From positions 124,001 to 188,000 of the forward strand of contig JAHDCU010000008.1 of assembly GCA_020629715.1 (NCBI GenBank): a DNA stretch of 64,000 bases, in the 5' to 3' direction. A program made the translations under genes and the position numbers. The notes beneath the pieces are model-generated. The model was given only the letters and a program-made list of their open reading frames with translations. It did no database searches and had not been told where the DNA came from. The number at the start of each line of letters is the position of its first letter. The stretch's first letter is position 1. Positions 1,730 through 25,671 of this stretch are shown one piece after another. The DNA comes from Saprospiraceae bacterium (GTDB lineage Bacteria; Bacteroidota; Bacteroidia; Chitinophagales; Saprospiraceae).

Positions 1730-4006
1730 TTAAGCTACACCAGCATCTTTTCTGATCTTATTAAGGGCTGAACCGGCTTTTACCCAATCAATCTGTGCTT
1801 GATTGTAAGTATGCGATACTTTAAATTCATCATTGGTACCGTCGTGGTGGTCTAATTTTATGGTCAATGGTTTTCCTGGTGCCATCGCATCAAAATCTAG
1901 GATACTCACAATATCATCCTGACGTACTTTATCGTAATCTGATTTATCGATAAAGGTAAGCGCAAGCATACCTTGCTTCTTGAGGTTAGTTTCATGAATA
2001 CGTGCAAATGATTTCACGATTACAGCATGTACTCCAAGGAATCTTGGTTCCATCGCTGCATGCTCTCTTGATGATCCTTCACCTAGATTTTCTTCTCCAA
2101 ATACAACTGTACCTATACCCTTTGCTTGATACGCTTTAGCACTATCTGGAACGGCAACGTAATCGTTGTTAACATAGTTAAGTACGGAGTTGGCTTTTTC
2201 ATTAAAGAAGTTGATCGCTCCTGTGTAGCAGTTTTCAGATATATTCTGTAAATGTCCTCTATATTTCAACCATGGTCCTGCCATAGAGATATGATCGGTA
2301 GTACATTTTCCTTTTACTTTGATCAACACTCGCATATCTGTTACATCCGTTTTCGTAATCGGCACAAATGGCGTCAATAATTGTAATCGATCTGAACTAG
2401 GATCTACTTTGACTTCGACATTGCTTCCATCTTCAGCTGGAGCATTATATCCTCTATCCTTTACATCAAATCCATTAGGAGGTAGCTCGTATCCTGTAGG
2501 TTCGTCAAGTCTTACTTCTTCTCCTTTATCATTCGTTAATGTATCAGTTGCAGGATTAAAGTCAAGTCTTCCGGCAATAGCGATTGCTGCTACCATTTCA
2601 GGAGAAGCTACAAAAGCATGAGTATTAGGATTACCATCAGCTCTTTTCGAGAAGTTTCTGTTAAAAGAGTGGATGATACTATTTTTAGGAGCATTCATTG
2701 GGTCGTTATACCTAGCCCATTGCCCAATACATGGTCCACATGCATTAGTGAAAATTTTAGCATTTAGATCTTCAAAAATCTTTAGTATACCGTCTCGCTC
2801 AGTCGTATATCGAACCTGCTCACTTCCTGGATTGATTCCAAATTCAGCTTTGGTGGTCAATCCTTTTTCTACTGCTTGTTTTGCAATTGATGCTGCTCTA
2901 GATAGATCTTCATAGGAAGAGTTGGTACATGACCCGATCAATCCCCATTCGACGTCTAGTGGCCAATCATTTTCTGTTGCTTTTTCAGTCATCTCTTTAC
3001 CAGCTGCAGTAGATAGATCTGGCGTAAATGGACCGTTGATTAATGGCTTCAATGTAGAAAGATCAATTTCTATAACTTGATCAAAGTATTTCTCTGGATT
3101 TTCATAGCATTCAGCATCAGCTGTTAAATGCTCTTTAACCGCATTAGCGGCATCTGCGATGTCGGCTCTATCAGTAGCACGTAGATAGCGGTCCATACTG
3201 TCATCATATCCAAAGGTAGAAGTCGTAGCTCCGATTTCTGCACCCATGTTACAGATCGTTCCTTTTCCTGTACAACTTAGATTTTTAGCGCCTTCACCAA
3301 AGTATTCTACGATGGCTCCTGTACCTCCCTTGACAGTCAGTATATCAGCAACTCTTAAGATGACATCTTTAGGTGATGACCATCCTGATAACTTACCCGT
3401 AAGTTTTACACCTATCAATTTAGGATTTTTGAGTTCCCAGGGCATGCCAGCCATCACATCTACGGCATCCGCTCCACCTACACCAATCGCTACCATACCT
3501 AAGCCACCAGCATTTACTGTATGGCTATCAGTACCGATCATCATTCCGCCAGGGAATGCGTAGTTTTCTAATACTACTTGGTGAATGATACCTGCACCTG
3601 GCTTCCAAAATCCGATGCCGTATTTATCAGAAACAGACTCTAAGAAGTTAAATACTTCATTACTCGTATTGATTGCGTTTTGTAGATCCGCATCTGCACC
3701 AATTTTTGCTTGGATCAAGTGATCGCAATGCACAGTGGATGGTACTGCAACTTTATCTTTTCCTGCCATCATAAACTGTAGTAGTGCCATCTGAGCAGTA
3801 GCATCTTGCATCGCTACACGGTCTGGTGCATAAAAGACATAATCCTTTCCTCTTTTATAGTCAGCTAAAGGGCTATCCGCATGTAAATGCGAGTACAATA
3901 TTTTTTCAGCAAGGGTAAGAGGTCTTCCCAAGGTTTTCTTTACACTTGCGATCTTCTCTGGAAGTTCGGCGTAGTGTTTCTTGATCATATCTATATCGAA
4001 TGCCAT
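1730..4006 (-). CDS. acn: Aconitate hydratase, mitochondrial-type
   Basis: Interconverts citrate and isocitrate in the TCA cycle in the cytoplasm. The 758-residue length, the GTDSHT motif and the iron-sulfur cysteines in GSCTNSS (near residue 357) and ACGPCIGQW (near 422 and 425) match mitochondrial-type aconitases rather than AcnB. The C-terminal swivel domain is complete ([15 protein letters not shown]). I chose ATG at 4006 ([12 protein letters not shown]); the frame extends 18 codons further upstream with an unlikely leader. A Bacteroidota-type -7 box lies about 30 bases upstream. Convergent with the adhesin gene. Confidence 0.96.
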
Positions 4007-18194: not shown

Positions 18195-19509
18195 GATTTG
18201 GTTAATCACAAAACGAGAGTATGTCACTCGTGTCAAGAATAAAACTTTTTTATTAACCACATTCCTAGCGCCTATCGGCTTCCTGCTGTTTTTCTTAGCA
18301 TTAGGTTTCGTGATGAGTAGAGGATCGGATGACTTAAAGACAATCTATGTTTTAGATGAACAGAATTTACTCAATGGAGAGTTGTCGGGTAGGGAAAATT
18401 TAGAGTTCAAATTTTCTGATTCTAGCCTAGATCAACTTAGATCTCAGTACGAGACTGATCAATTTGCAGGGATTTTGCAGTTAAGATCGATCGATCGAGA
18501 TGATATTGCTAAATATGATATTCTCTGGCACAGCGATGATCAGCTTGCTCTGGACGAATCACAATCAATAGAGCGAGTAGTACGACGTAAAGTCAGAGAT
18601 TATAAGCTCAAAGCTTTAGATATAGATGAGAGTAAGTTAGAATCTTTAGATACTAGGATCAATATTATCCCCAAAACTATACTTGCTGATAAAGAAGTAA
18701 GTAGCATGACAGGTGTAGTAGGATCAATATTAGGTGGAATAGTTGGTTACGCTCTGTTTTTCATTATTCTCATCTACGGTATGCAAGTGATGCGCAGTGT
18801 AATGGAGGAAAAGATAAACCGAATCGTGGAAGTCTTGATATCATCAGTTACTCCTTTTCAACTAATGATGGGGAAGGTAATTGGAGTAGGGCTAGTAGGC
18901 CTTACACAGATTGGTCTATGGGCAATATTATTTCCAGTTATTTTTGCTGTGGGATCTACGTTTTTTGGCATAGATAGTAGTCCTGAAATGTTAGATATGG
19001 CCAATAATCCTGATATACCCGAGGAGGTGATGGCTGAAGGAATGGATAAAGTTGCAGTTATATTAAGAGAGATCGGTAATATGAACTGGCTAATGATTCT
19101 TCCTCTTTTAATATTCTATTTTTTAGGTGGATATTTTGCATATGCCTCTCTATTTGCGGCTGTGGGTTCAGCTGTAGGTGAAGATATTAATGAAGCGCAG
19201 TCTCTTACGTTACCGATTATGTTGCCTTTGATGTTTGCCGTATATATTGGAGTGAGTGCCATTAATGCTCCTGATGGAGATATCGTAGTATGGGCGTCTA
19301 TCATTCCGCTGTTGTCTTCTATTGTAATGCCAGTAAGACTTCCTTCTGATCCAGCAGCATGGCAAATAATATTGTCCGTTATATTGTTGGTCGGATTTGT
19401 GTTTTTCTTTACTTGGTTAGCTGGTCGTATATATAGAGTGGGTATATTGATGTATGGTAAGAAGGCAAGTTTCAAAGAGCTCTGGAAGTGGATTTTTTAT
19501 AAAGGATGA
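18187..19509 (+). CDS. ABC-2 type exporter permease (NatB-like)
   Basis: A 440-residue inner-membrane permease. One N-terminal helix (residues ~22-42) is followed by a large external domain of about 130 residues and then five to six helices starting near 180. The conserved MEEKINRIVEVLISSVTPFQLMMGK segment, shortened here to its core MEEKINRIVEVL, identifies the NatB/ABC-2 family. It pairs with the ATPase that it overlaps. An array of TGA-containing heptamers follows its stop codon by 11 bases. Confidence 0.92.
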   Translation: MNKIWLITKREYVTRVKNKTFLLTTFLAPIGFLLFFLALGFVMSRGSDDLKTIYVLDEQNLLNGELSGRENLEFKFSDSSLDQLRSQYETDQFAGILQLRSIDRDDIAKYDILWHSDDQLALDESQSIERVVRRKVRDYKLKALDIDESKLESLDTRINIIPKTILADKEVSSMTGVVGSILGGIVGYALFFIILIYGMQVMRSVMEEKINRIVEVLISSVTPFQLMMGKVIGVGLVGLTQIGLWAILFPVIFAVGSTFFGIDSSPEMLDMANNPDIPEEVMAEGMDKVAVILREIGNMNWLMILPLLIFYFLGGYFAYASLFAAVGSAVGEDINEAQSLTLPIMLPLMFAVYIGVSAINAPDGDIVVWASIIPLLSSIVMPVRLPSDPAAWQIILSVILLVGFVFFFTWLAGRIYRVGILMYGKKASFKELWKWIFYKG

Positions 19510-19520
19510 TTTGTTTAACT

Positions 19521-19548
19521 AGTTGACAGTTGACAGTTGACAGTTGAC
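19521..19548 (+). repeat. Heptanucleotide tandem repeat AGTTGAC x4
   Basis: Four exact copies of AGTTGAC follow the permease stop codon. Because seven is not a multiple of three, the TGA in each unit closes all three forward frames. It is one of three heptamer arrays in this window. Confidence 0.95.
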
Positions 19549-19620
19549 TAAATTATTTTGACTAGGATAGATGCAAATATTGAATCTTTGAAACTATCAG
19601 TTTTGTAATCTAGTTGGCCC

Positions 19621-19648
19621 GTAACCCGTAACCCGTAACCCGTAACCC
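19621..19648 (+). repeat. Heptanucleotide tandem repeat GTAACCC x4
   Basis: Four exact copies of GTAACCC, preceded by a partial CCC, end directly at the TTG start of the TMEM220-like gene. TAA occurs in all three forward frames. Copy-number change here would alter the distance between any upstream promoter and the gene. Confidence 0.95.
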
Positions 19649-20008
19649 TTGAATAAAAAATGGATACATATAATTGTCGCTTTGCTAATGATTAGCTTTG
19701 GTGCAGTACAATTCAATGATCCTGACGGTTTGATATGGGTGGGAGTGTATTGGTTGGTGGCTTTGGTTCCGATATCTACGATTTTTGATAGACTTAATCC
19801 TATATGGTCGCTCCGTTATGCTATGGTCTTGTTGATCTGGCTTTTGTTTTACATACCAGATGTGATATATTGGTTGGGAGAAGGAGCACCTAGTATTGCA
19901 GAATCTATGAAAGCGGAATCACCCTTTATAGAGCTAGTAAGAGAGTTTTTTGGATTAGTGATATGCATAGGTACTTTGCTTTTCTACTATTTCAAAGGAA
20001 GAAAGTAA
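19649..20008 (+). CDS. TMEM220-family membrane protein
   Basis: A 119-residue protein with four predicted membrane helices. The FNDPDGLIWVGVYW segment after the first helix is the hallmark of the TMEM220 family, whose function is unknown. The start is TTG at 19649 (MNKKWIHIIVALL); the next in-frame ATG, 13 codons in, would truncate the first helix. A GTAACCC repeat array abuts the start codon. It precedes the TPR/BlaI/M56 operon by 55 bases but that operon seems to have its own promoter. Confidence 0.75.
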   Translation: MNKKWIHIIVALLMISFGAVQFNDPDGLIWVGVYWLVALVPISTIFDRLNPIWSLRYAMVLLIWLLFYIPDVIYWLGEGAPSIAESMKAESPFIELVREFFGLVICIGTLLFYYFKGRK

Positions 20009-20021
20009 GTATTTGGCGTAT

Positions 20022-20059
20022 TTTATAGTTGCATAACTTATAAATACGTTATATATTTG
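20022..20059 (+). promoter_or_regulatory. Bacteroidota promoter with overlapping palindrome, upstream of TPR/BlaI/M56 operon
   Basis: TTG (20029-20031) and TATATTTG (20052-20059) are 20 bases apart, matching -33 and -7 elements of Bacteroidota sigma factor. A near-palindrome with arms TTTATAGTT and AACTTATAAA (20022-20044) covers the -33 element. The predicted start of transcription falls at about the ATG at 20064, so the mRNA may be leaderless. BlaI, encoded second in the operon, is the obvious candidate to bind the palindrome. Confidence 0.6.
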
Positions 20060-20063
20060 AAAT

Positions 20064-21239
20064 ATGCGTTATGCAGTTTTCATATTATATCTATTTACTT
20101 TACAAGTAAGCGAAGGGCAATCCGTTGTATCAGATTCTTTATTGAATTTGGCAAGCTACCAAGATCAACTTGGAAATACTAATGATGCTATAGCGTCGAT
20201 TGACCAGTGTATAGAAATTGATTCTTTAGCATACGATTGCTATATGCTTGGTGCTAAAATAGCTCAGAGACAAGGTGATTTCAAGAAGGTAAAAAATTAC
20301 TTACTTCATGACTCGTTGATGTATTATCGAGCCAGTGCATGCCATAGAATATTGGCGAATGTCTATGAACAAGAAGGTAACACCGCCAAGTCAGGAAAAT
20401 ACTACAAGTTATTATGCGATAGCTTCCCTGATCAAGCCCTATATCATCGAAAACTGGCACAGCAATATGCAAAAGCCGGGGCTGTGAATAGCGCATTCAG
20501 GGAGTATGGAAAAGCCTATCAGCTTAATGATAAAGATGTATTTACTATCCTTGGGTTGTCAGAGTTTTTGGTGAAATCTAAAGAATACGAAAAGGTGGAT
20601 TCGATCCTCAATGCAGCCGTAGCATATGATAGCACTAACGTCAGAATAAAACATCAGCTAGCTATAAGCAAATATCGGCAGCAACAGTATGATAGCACCT
20701 GTATAGTGATGAAAAGTCTAGAAGGGCGTATAGATTTCAATCCATATCAAAATAAGATCTACGGTTATAGCTTGATACAAATTGATTCTTTGGATGATGC
20801 CATTTTCTATCTAGAAAAGAGTCTGCAAGGAGAAGGAAATCCTGAGAAGGCTCATTATTATTTAGGTATTGCATATGAAGAAAGGGACGAATTAGATAAT
20901 GCAAAGTATCACTATGATAAGGCCATCGAATATGCTATAAGTAAAGACATAGACCTATATCATCGCAATCTTGCAGCCATGGCACATGATGATAATGATG
21001 GTGCAGAAAAGATAAAGCATCTCAAAAAAGTATATGAATACGAACCTTCGGGAAGAAATCTTTTTCAGCTAGCTAGAGCAGCGGATGAGTACTATGCTGA
21101 TAAAAATGTTGCCAAACGATACTTCCAAAAATATCTAAATCTGAATAATCAGGAGCCACAGCTTTCTACATATGCTAGAGATCGCGTAGCTACGATAAAG
21201 GAGTATTTACATTTTAAAAAATCAAAATCTGGATCATGA
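20064..21239 (+). CDS. Exported TPR protein, first gene of a BlaI/M56 operon
   Basis: A 391-residue protein with a short signal peptide (RYAVFILYLFTLQVSEG) and about eight to nine tetratricopeptide repeats through the rest (for example AHYYLGIAYEERDELDNAKYHYDKAIEYA). TPR arrays bind other proteins, so it may be a periplasmic partner of the M56 sensor. Its stop overlaps the BlaI start in an ATGA, so translation is coupled. A promoter-operator candidate lies immediately upstream. Confidence 0.85.
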   Translation: MRYAVFILYLFTLQVSEGQSVVSDSLLNLASYQDQLGNTNDAIASIDQCIEIDSLAYDCYMLGAKIAQRQGDFKKVKNYLLHDSLMYYRASACHRILANVYEQEGNTAKSGKYYKLLCDSFPDQALYHRKLAQQYAKAGAVNSAFREYGKAYQLNDKDVFTILGLSEFLVKSKEYEKVDSILNAAVAYDSTNVRIKHQLAISKYRQQQYDSTCIVMKSLEGRIDFNPYQNKIYGYSLIQIDSLDDAIFYLEKSLQGEGNPEKAHYYLGIAYEERDELDNAKYHYDKAIEYAISKDIDLYHRNLAAMAHDDNDGAEKIKHLKKVYEYEPSGRNLFQLARAADEYYADKNVAKRYFQKYLNLNNQEPQLSTYARDRVATIKEYLHFKKSKSGS

Positions 21240-21592
21240 AGAGACTAACAAAAGCAGAGGAAGAGATCATGCAGTTATTCTGGGAGCACGGTGCATCAAC
21301 GGTCAGTGGATTGATCAAATTGATGACCGATCCGAAACCACCACATAGCACCATTTCATCCATCGTCCGCATCTTAGAAAAGAAAGGATTTGTAGATCAT
21401 AAAGCCTATGGAAGGACCTATGATTACTTTCCAATAATAGAAAAAGATGACTACTCGAAATACAAGTTGGGAAATCTAGTATCCGGGTATTTTGACGGTT
21501 CTATGAATCAGTTAGTAAGCTTTCTTGTAAAAGAAAACGACTTGTCCGTCAAGGATCTTTCAGAAATCATTGATCAACTACAAAACGACTAA
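21236..21592 (+). CDS. BlaI/MecI/CopY-family repressor
   Basis: A 118-residue winged-helix repressor. MKRLTKAEEEIMQLFWEHG, the helix-turn-helix (PPHSTISSIVRILEKKGFVDHK) and the wing (YGRTYDYFPII) are typical of the family, whose members repress until cleaved after a signal from an M56 membrane peptidase. That peptidase is encoded next, two bases after the stop codon. The C-terminal dimer helix with the presumed cleavage area is present (GSMNQLVSFLVKENDLS). Confidence 0.93.
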   Translation: MKRLTKAEEEIMQLFWEHGASTVSGLIKLMTDPKPPHSTISSIVRILEKKGFVDHKAYGRTYDYFPIIEKDDYSKYKLGNLVSGYFDGSMNQLVSFLVKENDLSVKDLSEIIDQLQND

Positions 21593-21594
21593 TC

Positions 21595-24090
21595 ATGCTA
21601 AATCAAGATATACTATTTCAGTTTTTGATAGACTCCACACTCTGCTGGACAGCCTTTTTATTGATCTATGTTTTGTTTCTTCAAAAAGAGACCTTTTTTA
21701 GACATAATAGATTGTATTTGTTGGCGTCATTAATGATGGGATTATTGTTGCCGATGCTGAGATTTTTACCAGAACACGTCAAAATAGAGCATAACGAGTC
21801 TATCGAATATGCAGCTTATTGGGTGGGGGAGAGTCTTATACTACCTGAAGTCTCTCAAGGATTAGATGCTTATGTGATTATCTTATTATCCCTATATAGT
21901 ATTGGAGTTATAGTAAGTCTATTTTTCATAGTAAAATCGGTAAGATCCATTTATACTTTGCGAGTGGGCGCTAATATTGAAAAAAGGAATGGCTATGAGC
22001 TCATTATCACTTCTAAAGAACACTTACCTTTTTCATTTTTTGGTAGTATCTATATCAGTAAAGCCTTGAGTTCAGATTCAGGGATCAATCAGATACTTAA
22101 GCACGAAATAGCGCATGTCGATGGTAAACACAGTTGGGATATTCTCGCAGTAGAATTCATTAAATGTCTGTTTTGGTTTCATCCTCTACTGTACATATAT
22201 AAATCAGCATTGCGACAGACGCATGAATTTGTTGCCGATCAAATGGTCTGTAAAGAATATCGTCGTAAAGACTACGGTCGTATGCTACTAGAACATTCTT
22301 TTTCAGGCTTACAGATGAGCCTTGCTAATCACTTTTTTAACTCTCACCTCAAAAAACGTATCCAAATGATGTATCAACATCCAAGTCAAAAGAAAGCTAG
22401 TATAAAGTATCTGATGGCCCTTCCACTAGTACTTGTATTCTTTGTGGTTTTTAATATGGCATATCCTAAAGATGGCATGAGCCAAGAGAAAGTAGATAAT
22501 TCGAGTGCAGTCTCATACAGCAGAGCTGACCTAGAAAAGCATATGAAGGATTATCCATATGCTACCGTAGATGAAATTGGAAAAGATTTTCCAGTCCTTA
22601 AAGCACTAAAACATACGGAGATTATCTATAGGACTTTAGATAATGAGCATCCTGATATCAAGATTTTTAATGTAAATGATACTTCACATATGTATCTATA
22701 TAATGATGGTATTGATGGCAATACTCCAGCCGCAACCACTGTAAATTTTTTTGATAAAACACTTGTGGCAGATACTATTCCAAATCGACAAGTATGGTAT
22801 GACACTATAGTAGAATTTGATCCAGAGACATATGAGGAGAAGTTGACGATCGTAAAAAGAGAAGCGCAGCAATACTTTGGCGATTCTATATCATATAAAG
22901 TGAAGGATGGAATGTCTGAGATGAAAGTTTATCAGGAAGGAGAGGTGGATACCATCATTGAGTTTGATCTAGATACTAAAAAGGAAAAAACAAATATCGT
23001 AAAACGATCTGCACAATATCACAATGATGAAATTTTTAAAGTAGTGGAGCGAATGCCTTGTATGATTGGATGCGAAACCATTACGGATAAGGAGGAAAGA
23101 TCGGAATGCTCGAATAAAAAGTTTGTCAAGTACTTGGGTGAAAATATTATGTACCCTAAAAAAGCACAGCAAGATGGCACTGAAGGTACTGTAGTAGCAA
23201 ATTTTGTTATTGATAAATCTGGTTTTGTGCAAGATGTGAAAATCTTAAGGAGCATAAGTACGGAAATTGATAATGAGTCTCTCCGAGTACTAAATGCTAT
23301 GAATGGATCATCTCCATCTTGGAGCCCTGGAAGGCAACGGGGAAAAGCCGTAAAGGTATTATACACCGTCCCCATAAAGTACAAGTTACAAGACGATAAA
23401 AAGAATAAAAATGAGCTTGAGAAAAAGCTGGAAGGAAAAAAAGCTGGCTTTGGATGGCAATCGAAAGGGGTATATGAGGATTCACCTACAGTAGTAGGGC
23501 ATGGCGAAGCAAAAAAAGAAATGAAGCTTTTTAATAAAAATATTGATCAGGATAATATTACCTATATCATCGATGGTGTCATAGAGCAACCCAACAGTTT
23601 GACAACCATCAATCCAGATGATATAGCCACGATCAATGTCTTCAAAGGAGCAAAAGCCAAGGAAATTTACGGTGATGGTATCAAGGAAAGTGTCATTGAT
23701 ATCAAAACAAAAGTCTATGCTGCTCAGCAAAATCCTGAATTTGATATACCAGCTATGGTGCCAGGTTGTGAAAATGAAGGAGATACAGAAGCACAAGTGA
23801 AGTGCAGTGAGAGGAAGCTACTGATGGCTGTTTACAAAAATATTAAGTACCCAGCAAAAGCACGGGATAAATCTATTCAAGGTACTGTAATATCGAGTTT
23901 TACAGTAGAGGTAGACGGCAGAGCTCATAGTCCGGTTATCAAAGAATCTATCGGTGGCGGCTGCTCAGAAGCAGTATTAGAGATGTATAAAATCATGCTC
24001 AAAAAATACCCAACATGGATTCCTGCGCAAAAAGATGGAAAAGCTATAAAATCAGAGTATGTATTGCCTGTGAAGTTTAAGCTGCAGTGA
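21595..24090 (+). CDS. M56 BlaR1-like sensor peptidase with plug-like and two TonB C-terminal domains
   Basis: An 831-residue membrane sensor. Residues 1-295 hold four membrane helices and the M56 zinc site HEIAH near 170-174 with H-S-W-D. Residues ~400-475 contain two copies of a DTIVEFD-type segment. Residues ~489-597 and ~722-831 are TonB C-terminal-like domains (NIMYPKKA...GTVVANFVID and NIKYPAKA...GTVISSFTVE). Residues ~654-705 look like a TonB-receptor plug (YIIDGVIE...INPDDIATINVFKGA). It probably senses the envelope and triggers BlaI cleavage. No penicillin-binding sensor domain is present, so the signal differs from classical BlaR1. Confidence 0.85.
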   Translation: MLNQDILFQFLIDSTLCWTAFLLIYVLFLQKETFFRHNRLYLLASLMMGLLLPMLRFLPEHVKIEHNESIEYAAYWVGESLILPEVSQGLDAYVIILLSLYSIGVIVSLFFIVKSVRSIYTLRVGANIEKRNGYELIITSKEHLPFSFFGSIYISKALSSDSGINQILKHEIAHVDGKHSWDILAVEFIKCLFWFHPLLYIYKSALRQTHEFVADQMVCKEYRRKDYGRMLLEHSFSGLQMSLANHFFNSHLKKRIQMMYQHPSQKKASIKYLMALPLVLVFFVVFNMAYPKDGMSQEKVDNSSAVSYSRADLEKHMKDYPYATVDEIGKDFPVLKALKHTEIIYRTLDNEHPDIKIFNVNDTSHMYLYNDGIDGNTPAATTVNFFDKTLVADTIPNRQVWYDTIVEFDPETYEEKLTIVKREAQQYFGDSISYKVKDGMSEMKVYQEGEVDTIIEFDLDTKKEKTNIVKRSAQYHNDEIFKVVERMPCMIGCETITDKEERSECSNKKFVKYLGENIMYPKKAQQDGTEGTVVANFVIDKSGFVQDVKILRSISTEIDNESLRVLNAMNGSSPSWSPGRQRGKAVKVLYTVPIKYKLQDDKKNKNELEKKLEGKKAGFGWQSKGVYEDSPTVVGHGEAKKEMKLFNKNIDQDNITYIIDGVIEQPNSLTTINPDDIATINVFKGAKAKEIYGDGIKESVIDIKTKVYAAQQNPEFDIPAMVPGCENEGDTEAQVKCSERKLLMAVYKNIKYPAKARDKSIQGTVISSFTVEVDGRAHSPVIKESIGGGCSEAVLEMYKIMLKKYPTWIPAQKDGKAIKSEYVLPVKFKLQ

Positions 24091-24119
24091 CCTCCCATTA
24101 ATCTTATAGATTAATAATT

Positions 24120-24166
24120 AGGCTATTAGTTGCTATCTTAGTAAGATGAGACTAATAGCCTTTTTT
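24120..24166 (+). terminator. Hairpin plus T-run that encloses the next gene's start codon
   Basis: Perfect 11-base arms (24120-24130, AGGCTATTAGT; 24151-24161, ACTAATAGCCT) flank a 20-base loop and are followed by TTTTTT. The loop contains a smaller symmetric element (ATCTTA, then TAAGAT) and the ATG at 24146. It has the form of an intrinsic terminator for the M56 gene, but its 3' arm is codons 2 to 6 of the DinB-like gene. Confidence 0.75.
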
Positions 24167-24721
24167 GTACTTCTATCTTCTACGCTTATGGCACAAGACA
24201 TCCCTTACTCCGAGATTGGCGAAAAGCCCGAAACTTTTACTGCGGGTACTAGTATATCGAGAATGATAGATGGTCTTGGCTATCGTTATTACTGGGCGAC
24301 CGAAGGGTTAAGAACAGAAGATCTTAGTTATGATCCTGGAAACGGAGGTCAAATATGTAGTGATGTACTAACTCACCTATATGGTCTTAGTACCACTATA
24401 TTGAATGGTGTAAAATCTGCACCTAACATCAGACCTCTGGTCACTGATGGAATAGAATGGGATGACATGAGAGCATCTACATTGCATAACTTTAAGCAGG
24501 CCTCTGACATAATCAAGCAACTAAGTGATGATGAGGTGCAAGGATTAAAGCTTGTTTTTCAGCGAGGTGATCTTAGCTCAGAGGTTGACTTTTGGCATAT
24601 GCTCAATGGTCCTCTTGCAGATGCCATCTATCACGTTGGACAAATAGTCTCATATAGACGGTCTACGGGAAATCCGATTGATCCAAACGTCAATGTGTTT
24701 AGAGGAAAAAATAGGGAATAG
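24146..24721 (+). CDS. Exported DinB-like protein
   Basis: A 191-residue protein. A signal peptide (MRLIAFFVLLSSTLMAQ) is followed by a four-helix-bundle pattern like DinB/YfiT proteins: YRYYWATEGL, then SDVLTHLYGLSTTIL, then HVGQIVSYRRSTGNP near the end. DinB-like proteins often bind a divalent metal through three histidines; here H-L-Y, H-N and H-V-G are possible ligands. Export is unusual for the fold. The start codon lies in the loop of a terminator-like hairpin. Confidence 0.7.
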   Translation: MRLIAFFVLLSSTLMAQDIPYSEIGEKPETFTAGTSISRMIDGLGYRYYWATEGLRTEDLSYDPGNGGQICSDVLTHLYGLSTTILNGVKSAPNIRPLVTDGIEWDDMRASTLHNFKQASDIIKQLSDDEVQGLKLVFQRGDLSSEVDFWHMLNGPLADAIYHVGQIVSYRRSTGNPIDPNVNVFRGKNRE

Positions 24722-24779
24722 CATCTGTAAAACTAATAGCGGAAACTTTCGTTAAAATTAAAGTTTAGACTCTAATTGC

Positions 24780-25142
24780 TTGAGAAATAAAGACCTCATA
24801 TTATCGATTATACAGAAGGCAGATTCTGCTTTGTCTCATCAGGATCTTGTGCAGGGAATTGATAAGAAAATCAATCGAGTGACGATCTATCGCATTTTAG
24901 ATAGATTGATCGATGCAGGGGAAATTCATAAAGTCATTGATATAGATGGTGTTGGCAGATATGCTGCATGTCATAAATGCAACGATTATAATCACATGCA
25001 TGATCATGTTCATTTTAGCTGTACAAAATGCTCAGCAGTCACTTGTTTGGATAATATTCATCCTTCCTTTAAAATGCCAGCCAACTATAAAGTAGAAGAA
25101 GTTAACTTTACGATATCGGGGATTTGTCCGAAGTGTTTATAA
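24780..25142 (+). CDS. Fur-family metal-responsive regulator
   Basis: A 120-residue repressor. The N-terminal winged helix (LSHQDLVQGIDKKINRVTIYRILDRL) is followed by a zinc/metal domain with CHKC, the HMHDHVHF histidine cluster, CTKC and a final CPKC. This fits Fur/Zur/PerR proteins; the metal cannot be named by eye. The start is TTG 24780, since an in-frame stop lies 21 bases upstream and no ATG intervenes. The 3' end overlaps the convergent YcxB-like gene by 35 bases. Confidence 0.9.
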   Translation: MRNKDLILSIIQKADSALSHQDLVQGIDKKINRVTIYRILDRLIDAGEIHKVIDIDGVGRYAACHKCNDYNHMHDHVHFSCTKCSAVTCLDNIHPSFKMPANYKVEEVNFTISGICPKCL

Positions 25143-25671
25143 ATGTTGTGGTTAGTAATTCATAAAATTCATTGAATGTATCTTGACTAGGGAATGCTTT
25201 TTTGGGTAGGACAAAAAAACCTTTTCGGTGAAAGAAGTGTATTCCTAGCTCCTTTTTACTAATATTTTCGATTGAAGTGGCTAAAATGATAGTTTCAGAA
25301 TCGGTTGTGAGACTTGAGATCTTAATATATTTTTCGTTGATATGTATTGTAGATGAACTATAGTCGTTATACTTTTCGATATGATAGTTTATTGATTTTT
25401 TGAGTTTGAGATTAAACCACATGTGCTTACTTAATTTTATAGATCCAATGATGGTATAGCTACTACTAATCAATAGAATTCCAAGATTCAAAGCATTATT
25501 ATACATGATATAAGCGGCAATAAGTCCGCAAATAGGAGTAAGGATAATCCAGTGAATTTGATTTTTAAGGGTTTTTCCTCCAAAAACGCTATCGTCGTAG
25601 AAATACTCCGTGAGAAGCTCTTTTGTGAATTGTAACTGAAAATTATATTTATGAGCAGGTTTTTTTTCCAC
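25108..25671 (-). CDS. Two-helix membrane protein, YcxB-like
   Basis: A 187-residue protein starting at GTG 25671. A soluble N-terminus is followed by two adjacent membrane helices (about residues 42-58 and 63-80) and a C-terminal PH-like beta domain with INEKYIKISS and FHRKGFFVLPKKAF. This layout matches the YcxB-like family of unknown function, in which the FFVLPKRAF-type motif is conserved. The last 35 bases overlap the Fur gene tail to tail. Confidence 0.7.
   Translation of the reverse strand: MEKKPAHKYNFQLQFTKELLTEYFYDDSVFGGKTLKNQIHWIILTPICGLIAAYIMYNNALNLGILLISSSYTIIGSIKLSKHMWFNLKLKKSINYHIEKYNDYSSSTIHINEKYIKISSLTTDSETIILATSIENISKKELGIHFFHRKGFFVLPKKAFPSQDTFNEFYELLTTTFINTSDKSPIS

Follow-up and report, generated by a model that had tools for sequence, protein, structure and literature searches.

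A predicted BlaR1/BlaI-type proteolytic switch with a TonB_C and plug-derived arm in Saprospiraceae

We analyzed a 64,000-nucleotide stretch of the genome of a Saprospiraceae bacterium (GenBank assembly GCA_020629715.1, contig JAHDCU010000008.1, positions 124,001 to 188,000 of the forward strand; hereafter, the window), which belongs to a genome of 4.13 Mb that we label G000. At positions 20064-24090, the window carries an operon of three plus-strand open reading frames (ORFs) encoding an exported tetratricopeptide repeat (TPR) protein, a BlaI-type repressor and an M56 peptidase, the C-terminal arm of which combines two TonB C-terminal (TonB_C) domains with a short, plug-derived module between them. 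We propose that this operon encodes a self-regulated switch based on regulated proteolysis, of the BlaR1/BlaI type, in which BlaI would act at an operator in the operon's own promoter, the TonB_C-plug arm would serve as the sensor, M56 would cleave BlaI and the TPR protein would be the output. The type of circuit is well supported, whereas the sensed input is our inference; for the complete chain, from operator to output, we consider the case for and against to be evenly balanced.

Results

The reading frames of the TPR protein and BlaI overlap in an ATGA, and two bases separate the BlaI gene from the M56 gene. A preliminary description made from the letters of the sequence had reported this coupling, and the ORF map bears it out. 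The identities assigned there to the three products stand as well: the TPR protein starts with a hydrophobic, signal-peptide-like stretch, the second ORF matches Pfam Penicillinase_R (94.3 bits, cut-off 22.6) as well as the sequences of MecI structures (E 9.8e-12), and the third ORF matches Pfam Peptidase_M56 (57 bits, cut-off 31). The same three genes, with the same within-operon spacings and the same neighbors, are found in a second species of the same genus (locus L038, in the metagenome-assembled Saprospiraceae genome G085, brought in through a search for related loci), where the M56 protein is 80% identical to that of the window and the TonB_C-plug-TonB_C order is also kept. Given that gene order, spacings and arm order are all repeated in this second species, chance is excluded as an explanation of the layout.

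The counts of M56 genes reported here describe loci chosen among the matches listed in similarity searches rather than all M56 genes. The family sample joins a first set of 40 stretches picked from such matches with a second set, made up of 34 stretches selected for their similarity to TPR and 6 taken from the matches to an M56 query. Of the 70 M56 ORFs in this sample, 64 were kept: L079 was dropped because it duplicates L038 (one genome, one locus), as were five ORFs truncated at contig ends; the tree comprises 63 proteins, with L039 also left out. The wider sample consists of 49 loci from a search of 118 Bacteroidota genomes, 29 with the best Pfam scores and 20 picked by hand among the matches listed (two of the 49 lie in genomes of the same family), and its 53 M56 ORFs were read with our own profiles. 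BlaI is encoded on the same strand, at most 300 bases upstream, for 61 of the 70 M56 ORFs, and is present at 48 of the 49 wider loci. Inspection by eye of the sequence clusters formed by the neighbors of the first 44 M56 genes revealed no recurrent linked gene worth following besides BlaI and TPR.

An M56 protease without a penicillin-binding sensor

Conservation of the catalytic site indicates that the M56 protease should be active, because the HExxH motif and the further catalytic residues are kept throughout the alignment: H170, E171, H174 and D215 are present in all 64 homologues, and H210 and E211 in 63 of the 64. Hydropathy alone delineates hydrophobic segments at residues 5-30, 39-60, within 80-122 and at 266-293, the arm following the last of these; the catalytic domain match itself contains a further hydrophobic stretch (183-201). 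The preliminary description had noted that the peptidase lacks a penicillin-binding sensor and had placed it in a BlaI/M56 regulatory circuit. Both statements are supported, the former by the absence of any transpeptidase or penicillin-binding (SxxK) family among the Pfam matches at E<=1 and by the poor fit of the NCBIfam BlaR1 model, which covers residues 160-293 only (36.9 bits against a cut-off of 400), and the latter by the invariant HExxH, the promoter palindrome described below and the TonB_C and plug-derived arm. The input suggested in the same description, TonB-receptor state or outer-membrane stress, is treated here as a hypothesis.

The family resemblance to BlaR1/BlaI is the one argument in favor of a degenerate beta-lactam sensor system. 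With no penicillin-binding domain among these matches and no beta-lactamase among the three genes, we regard such a system as scarcely credible, and beta-lactam sensing was rejected because the sensor domain is absent from the Pfam and NCBIfam matches.

Besides the operon's own repressor, a fourth, weaker match to the BlaI family was noted elsewhere in the genome (G000:C13:58467-58634, 27.7 bits), on a contig without an M56 match.

A plug-derived module between two TonB_C domains

The two TonB C-terminal domains of the preliminary description were recovered by Pfam TonB_C, which finds two stretches in the M56 protein (96.9 bits, cut-off 24.6). The intervening segment of about 54 residues (approximately 653-706), here called the mini-plug, spans positions 39-101 of the 107 positions of Pfam Plug and is accordingly a partial plug. 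Taken alone, it scores 17.5 bits against the Pfam Plug cut-off of 23.9; the SusC/RagA model TIGR04056 matches residues 607-706 with E 6.8e-7, below its own cut-off, and RagA/SusC chains in the Protein Data Bank (PDB) match the single segment weakly (E 0.055-0.31). We found 19 mini-plug modules in 10 of 44 M56 proteins and aligned them into a profile. When this profile was compared with the PDB, all 20 of the 20 matches at E<=0.01 were TonB-dependent receptors, with the best at 7.6e-16. Because the family profile retrieves only TonB-dependent receptors, we assign the segment, by profile comparison, as a plug-derived module that comprises a part of the plug only and comes without the barrel; no outer-membrane barrel family in Pfam or NCBIfam matched within the 831 residues. 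The plug-like segment of the preliminary description thus falls short of the Pfam cut-off as a single sequence but passes as a family, so that the claim is not refuted.

The first TonB_C domain is 44% identical to a TonB_C-like stretch of a 306-residue ORF in the same genome. This kinship, together with the presence of two TonB_C domains, would fit an energized TonB-like transducer that serves some receptor, is fused to a protease by chance and functions mainly in transport, not in regulation. In TonB itself, the histidine of the anchor helix touches the motor. The same contact by a conserved anchor-helix histidine is described for TolA/TonB-like transducers in a passage on a related family (PMC12204202). 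In the four predicted membrane segments of M56, there is no column in which a histidine is shared by at least 25% of the 64 homologues. Because none of these segments has a conserved histidine, the arm is probably a passive sensor rather than an energized TonB, and in view also of the partnership with BlaI, a role as a transducer appears very improbable.

Arm modules across relatives

The TonB_C/plug arm is not special to the window locus but recurs in Saprospiraceae and other Bacteroidota families. Among the 64 homologues, Pfam at E<=0.001 identifies TonB_C in 49, Por_Secre_tail, the sorting domain of the type IX secretion system (T9SS), in 25, Plug in 10 and TonB_2 in 6, along with one each of CHU_C, two carboxypeptidase-regulatory domains and a weak GldM domain; the window protein falls under this threshold for Plug and hence is not one of the 10. 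With our own profiles, TonB_C is found in 52 of the 64, the tail in 27 and the plug in 17, while 12 lack all three. Across the 53 M56 ORFs of the wider sample, the same profiles identify TonB_C in 15 and the plug in 13, with both in 3 and neither in 28. Arms with TonB_C or plug are thus present on 25 of the 53, and we therefore consider the system a variant of BlaR1/BlaI and not a new kind.

The order and number of arm modules differ between M56 homologues, which counts against a sensing role for all of them, as some may be spacers. In an alternative explanation, the BlaI/M56 switch would be retained, but TonB_C and plug would be spacers, dimerization or peptidoglycan-contact modules, and cell-wall stress or another signal would enter through the loops or the TPR protein. 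The 12 homologues without any module, and the 28 wider ORFs with neither TonB_C nor plug, are readily accommodated by this explanation. Spacers would not be expected, however, to come from so narrow a repertoire, given that, M56 aside, the Pfam domains found in more than three of the 64 proteins are all TonB_C/TonB_2, T9SS tail or plug, nor to keep a YP motif within the first ~30 residues, as seen in 76 of 82 TonB_C modules of the homologues. We therefore consider it unlikely that the modules act in this way, and favor the arm as the sensor.

The window M56 protein has no T9SS tail. In six homologues (L045, L048, L049, L052, L057 and L061), the extreme C-terminus is a Por_Secre_tail scoring above the Pfam cut-off; a T9SS sorting tail on a membrane-anchored protease is surprising. 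A lipobox-like motif ending in Cys closes the last membrane helix of 11 of the 64 homologues (for example, L046, L050, L063 and L070), compared with a mean of 0.48 and a maximum of 3 in a shuffle control, and one of the 11 carriers is T9SS-tailed. According to a passage in PMC9834060, the BlaR1 sensor is shed by signal peptidase; by analogy with such shedding, the lipobox-like motif hints at processing of the arm. Signal-peptidase-like [AVS]xA motifs after the last helix were discarded as evidence of processing, being equally common in tailed (15 of 27) and untailed (18 of 37) proteins and supporting nothing.

A palindrome in the operon's own promoter

The candidate operator, AACTTATAAATACGTT, which conforms to the palindromic consensus AACKWA-N4-TWMGTT, sits upstream of the TPR gene between GTTG and TATATTTG, the usual place for a repressor. 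We take these two flanking sequences to be -33-like and -7-like elements, respectively, following the Bacteroidota promoter consensus. The exact motif is present within 150 bases upstream of the first gene in 32 of 59 homologous operons, compared with a mean of 0.06 and a maximum of 1 in 50 dinucleotide shuffles. Among 394 other genes of these loci, 5 also have it upstream, and all five are divergent neighbors that share the promoter region with such an operon. In a held-out test, for which we used the regions upstream of 50 BlaI genes from the wider sample, the exact motif was detected in 6 (shuffles: mean 0.08, maximum 1). Of six exact palindromes in G000, five lie within ORFs and one in the operon promoter, and a 25-base form of the operator is matched perfectly at this operon in G000 and at the corresponding operon in G085, and nowhere else in the two genomes. 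As far as can be read from the DNA, then, the operon's own promoter carries the shared palindrome, to which BlaI would bind.

When the 25-base operator was used to look for a wider regulon, with as many as 3 mismatches allowed, nothing stood out in G000 or G085 besides the operon's own site: in G000, there were 6 forward and 4 reverse matches, compared with 11 and 8 when the pattern was reversed, and in G085, 3 forward and 5 reverse, compared with 7 and 2. The exact palindrome at window positions 3390-3405 was rejected as an operator, located as it is inside a 776-residue ORF (by eye, an aconitase). Other palindromes were seen by eye in BlaI upstream regions of loci L143-L191, namely, TACGAA...TTCGTA, CTACA..TGTAG and ACTAA/TTAGT; the palindrome used thus appears to vary from one BlaI gene to another.

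Because the -7-like element ends 4 bases ahead of the ATG, the message of the operon may be leaderless. A similar spacing between the -7-like element and the start was observed by eye in some homologous operons.

The TPR protein as the proposed output

A TPR orthologue is encoded in 41 of 150 genomes of the family, and we read all 41 loci. BlaI is located downstream of TPR in 27 of these (at L049, with an ORF between the two), and one more locus has the order BlaI-TPR-M56, so that BlaI adjoins TPR or is one ORF off in 28 of the 41. The operator, allowing 1 mismatch, is found upstream of TPR in 25 of the 27 BlaI-followed loci, with 19 exact copies, and is exact in both cases where the TPR gene runs to a contig end. 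Among the 11 solitary TPR genes, two (L099 and L103) have an exact operator. The genome of L099 possesses a BlaI-M56 locus elsewhere (L193, with the start of a TonB_C) that has an exact copy of the motif, and that of L103 possesses a BlaI-M56 locus (L192) with two exact copies. Membership in the operon, the operator and its retention by two detached TPR genes all support TPR as the putative regulated output, with exceptions, and because the five other exact copies in the genome are inside ORFs, TPR is the one visible output beyond the switch itself.

The TPR protein could instead be a sensing partner of M56 that binds the periplasmic arm and conveys information on outer-membrane or secretion cargo. 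In the first sample, which was assembled by M56 similarity alone and contains 41 complete M56 proteins, a plug is present in 6 of 8 proteins with TPR compared to 4 of 33 without (p 0.001), and a T9SS tail in 6 of 8 compared to 9 of 33 (p 0.035); the BlaI-TPR-M56 order in one genome is in line with this possibility. On the 63-protein tree, however, the association between TPR and plug is not significant, being reduced to 2-3 independent pairs that point in the same direction in most pairings but are too few for significance. Moreover, the existence of solitary TPR genes, two of them with the operator, fits an output. A sensing partner is therefore somewhat unlikely in our estimate, and the TPR-plug association is kept as a lead, with TPR as output remaining the preferred assignment.

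Features and surroundings of the operon

The coordinates of all features are collected in Table 1. An Rfam scan of 19400-25200 returned no match. The stem of the terminator-like hairpin that follows the M56 gene is imperfect in L038. The next ORF (24146-24721) encodes a 191-aa protein with a signal-peptide-like start that adjoins the operon in L038 too and has no Pfam or NCBIfam match at E<=1. A Fur-family regulator (32 bits, cut-off 23.1) is encoded on the same strand at 24780-25142.

Table 1. Features of the TPR-BlaI-M56 operon and its flanks, in window coordinates
Feature	Position	Strand	Details and basis
GTTG, possible -33-like promoter element	20028..20031	+	sequence
Candidate BlaI operator AACTTATAAATACGTT (AACKWA-N4-TWMGTT)	20035..20050	+	motif statistics
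-7-like element TATATTTG (TAnnTTTG)	20052..20059	+	ends 4 bases before ATG; sequence; conserved in L038
Exported TPR protein, proposed regulated output	20064..21239	+	391 aa; several TPR families matched
BlaI/MecI-type repressor	21236..21592	+	118 aa; Pfam Penicillinase_R; MecI structure sequences
M56 protease with TonB_C - plug - TonB_C arm	21595..24090	+	831 aa; Pfam, NCBIfam, own profiles
M56 catalytic domain match, residues 152-259	22048..22371	+	HEIAH 170-174, HE..AD 210-215; Pfam
Last predicted membrane segment, residues 266-293, ahead of arm	22390..22473	+	hydropathy alone
First TonB_C domain, residues 518-598	23146..23388	+	Pfam TonB_C; PDB TonB chain E 2.6e-5
Mini-plug, residues 653-706	23551..23712	+	TIGR04056, own profile; single-sequence Pfam score under cut-off
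Second TonB_C domain, residues 746-830	23830..24084	+	Pfam counts two stretches; position by own profile
Terminator-like hairpin and T6 after M56 gene	24121..24166	+	sequence and fold; folded stretch holds the ATG of the next ORF (24146)

Discussion

In the circuit that we propose, BlaI bound to the palindrome between the -33-like and -7-like elements would repress the TPR-BlaI-M56 operon. The M56 protein would be an inner-membrane zinc protease, predicted from hydropathy and family membership to have its catalytic site in the cytoplasm and its C-terminal arm in the periplasm, where an event on the TonB_C-mini-plug-TonB_C arm would activate it. Because TonB_C domains normally bind the TonB boxes of receptors, and 76 of the 82 modules have YP near the start, docking of TonB_C on TonB boxes or similar segments of outer-membrane proteins is our leading idea for this event, with release from contact with the arm's own plug as the alternative. 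By analogy with the family, activated M56 would then cleave BlaI, inducing the operon, and the periplasmic TPR protein would take the place of blaZ or mecA of the classical systems, as the operon, the operator and the two detached TPR genes suggest.

Several observations weigh against this account. BlaR1 cuts BlaI at Asn101-Phe102, according to a passage in PMC9834060, whereas opposite N101-F102 of MecI, the BlaI of the window has F96-L97 and not Asn-Phe (F96 is present in 87% and L97 in 71% of 66 BlaI sequences). AlphaFold modeling of residues 475-831 from two sequences was uninformative, with a mean pLDDT of 30.4. As for the operator, the Saprospiraceae promoters counted among the 59 upstream regions are those in which the motif was first recognized; only the 50 regions upstream of BlaI genes in the wider sample are held out. 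Across the whole genome, the exact motif shows no enrichment (6 per strand versus 26 for the reversed pattern), and there is none within the window when 1 mismatch is allowed (3 copies versus 3.06 expected); support for the operator comes from position only, and BlaI could have more targets via looser sites. Nine of the 11 solitary TPR genes have no operator copy at up to 1 mismatch. In the L103 genome, a locus with a BlaI closer to that of the window (L194) has no motif at up to 1 mismatch, and the BlaI loci L195-L198 in the L099 and L103 genomes are without the motif as well.

The closest known systems are BlaR1/BlaI and MecR1/MecI of Staphylococcus, which share with the window operon an M56 protease with membrane segments and HExxH...E, an adjoining BlaI-type repressor and a palindromic operator (here, predicted) in their own promoter. 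In contrast to these systems, the window protein has an arm of TonB_C and plug in place of a penicillin-binding sensor, and the operon contains a gene for an exported TPR protein where those systems have a resistance gene; the staphylococcal operator also differs in sequence from AACKWA-N4-TWMGTT. The switch would work like BlaR1/BlaI, but without a beta-lactam sensor its M56 protein does not belong among the BlaR1 proteins. A second likeness is to signaling of the FecA/FecR/FecI type, that is, cell-surface signaling through a TonB-dependent receptor, in that the proposed switch would tie the state of such a receptor to transcription; here, however, there is no sigma/anti-sigma pair, and the TonB and plug parts reside on the inner-membrane protease itself. 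With TonB energy transducers, the arm shares the TonB_C domain and the YP motif, but it is fused to M56 and comes without an anchor helix with a conserved histidine. With the TonB-dependent receptors of the SusC/RagA type, it shares the plug core (E 7.6e-16 with the family profile) but has only about 54 plug residues, no barrel and a predicted inner-membrane anchor.

Searching the open-access literature by title and the beginning of the abstract, we found no study of M56-TonB or M56-plug regulators, although 49 of the 64 M56 homologues from the family carry TonB_C; an earlier description is possible. Two papers examined by term gave no discussion of such proteins: among the M56 matches listed for PMC12578637, all are catalogue numbers, and neither BlaR nor M56 was matched in PMC12204202. 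New in the present analysis are the promoter palindrome, the linkage between TPR and BlaI, and the modular arm with TonB_C, T9SS tail and plug.

With an operator motif and a TPR target defined, the switch can now be tested. Bacteroidota are a phylum rich in TonB-dependent nutrient receptors, and if the arm reads the state of TonB receptors or of secretion, the switch would constitute a route from the envelope to genes that operates without a sigma/anti-sigma pair. More broadly, and as a conjecture that we consider quite unlikely, the BlaI/M56 pairs of Bacteroidota might collectively perform surveillance of outer-membrane machines. The arm parts would be copies of the elements through which such machines recognize one another (TonB_C, receptor plug and T9SS tail), and an inner-membrane protease would thereby directly sense whether TonB receptors or the type IX secretion system have failed or are occupied; the arm may be cut by signal peptidase behind the last membrane helix, as in BlaR1, and T9SS-tailed arms may be exported as cargo.

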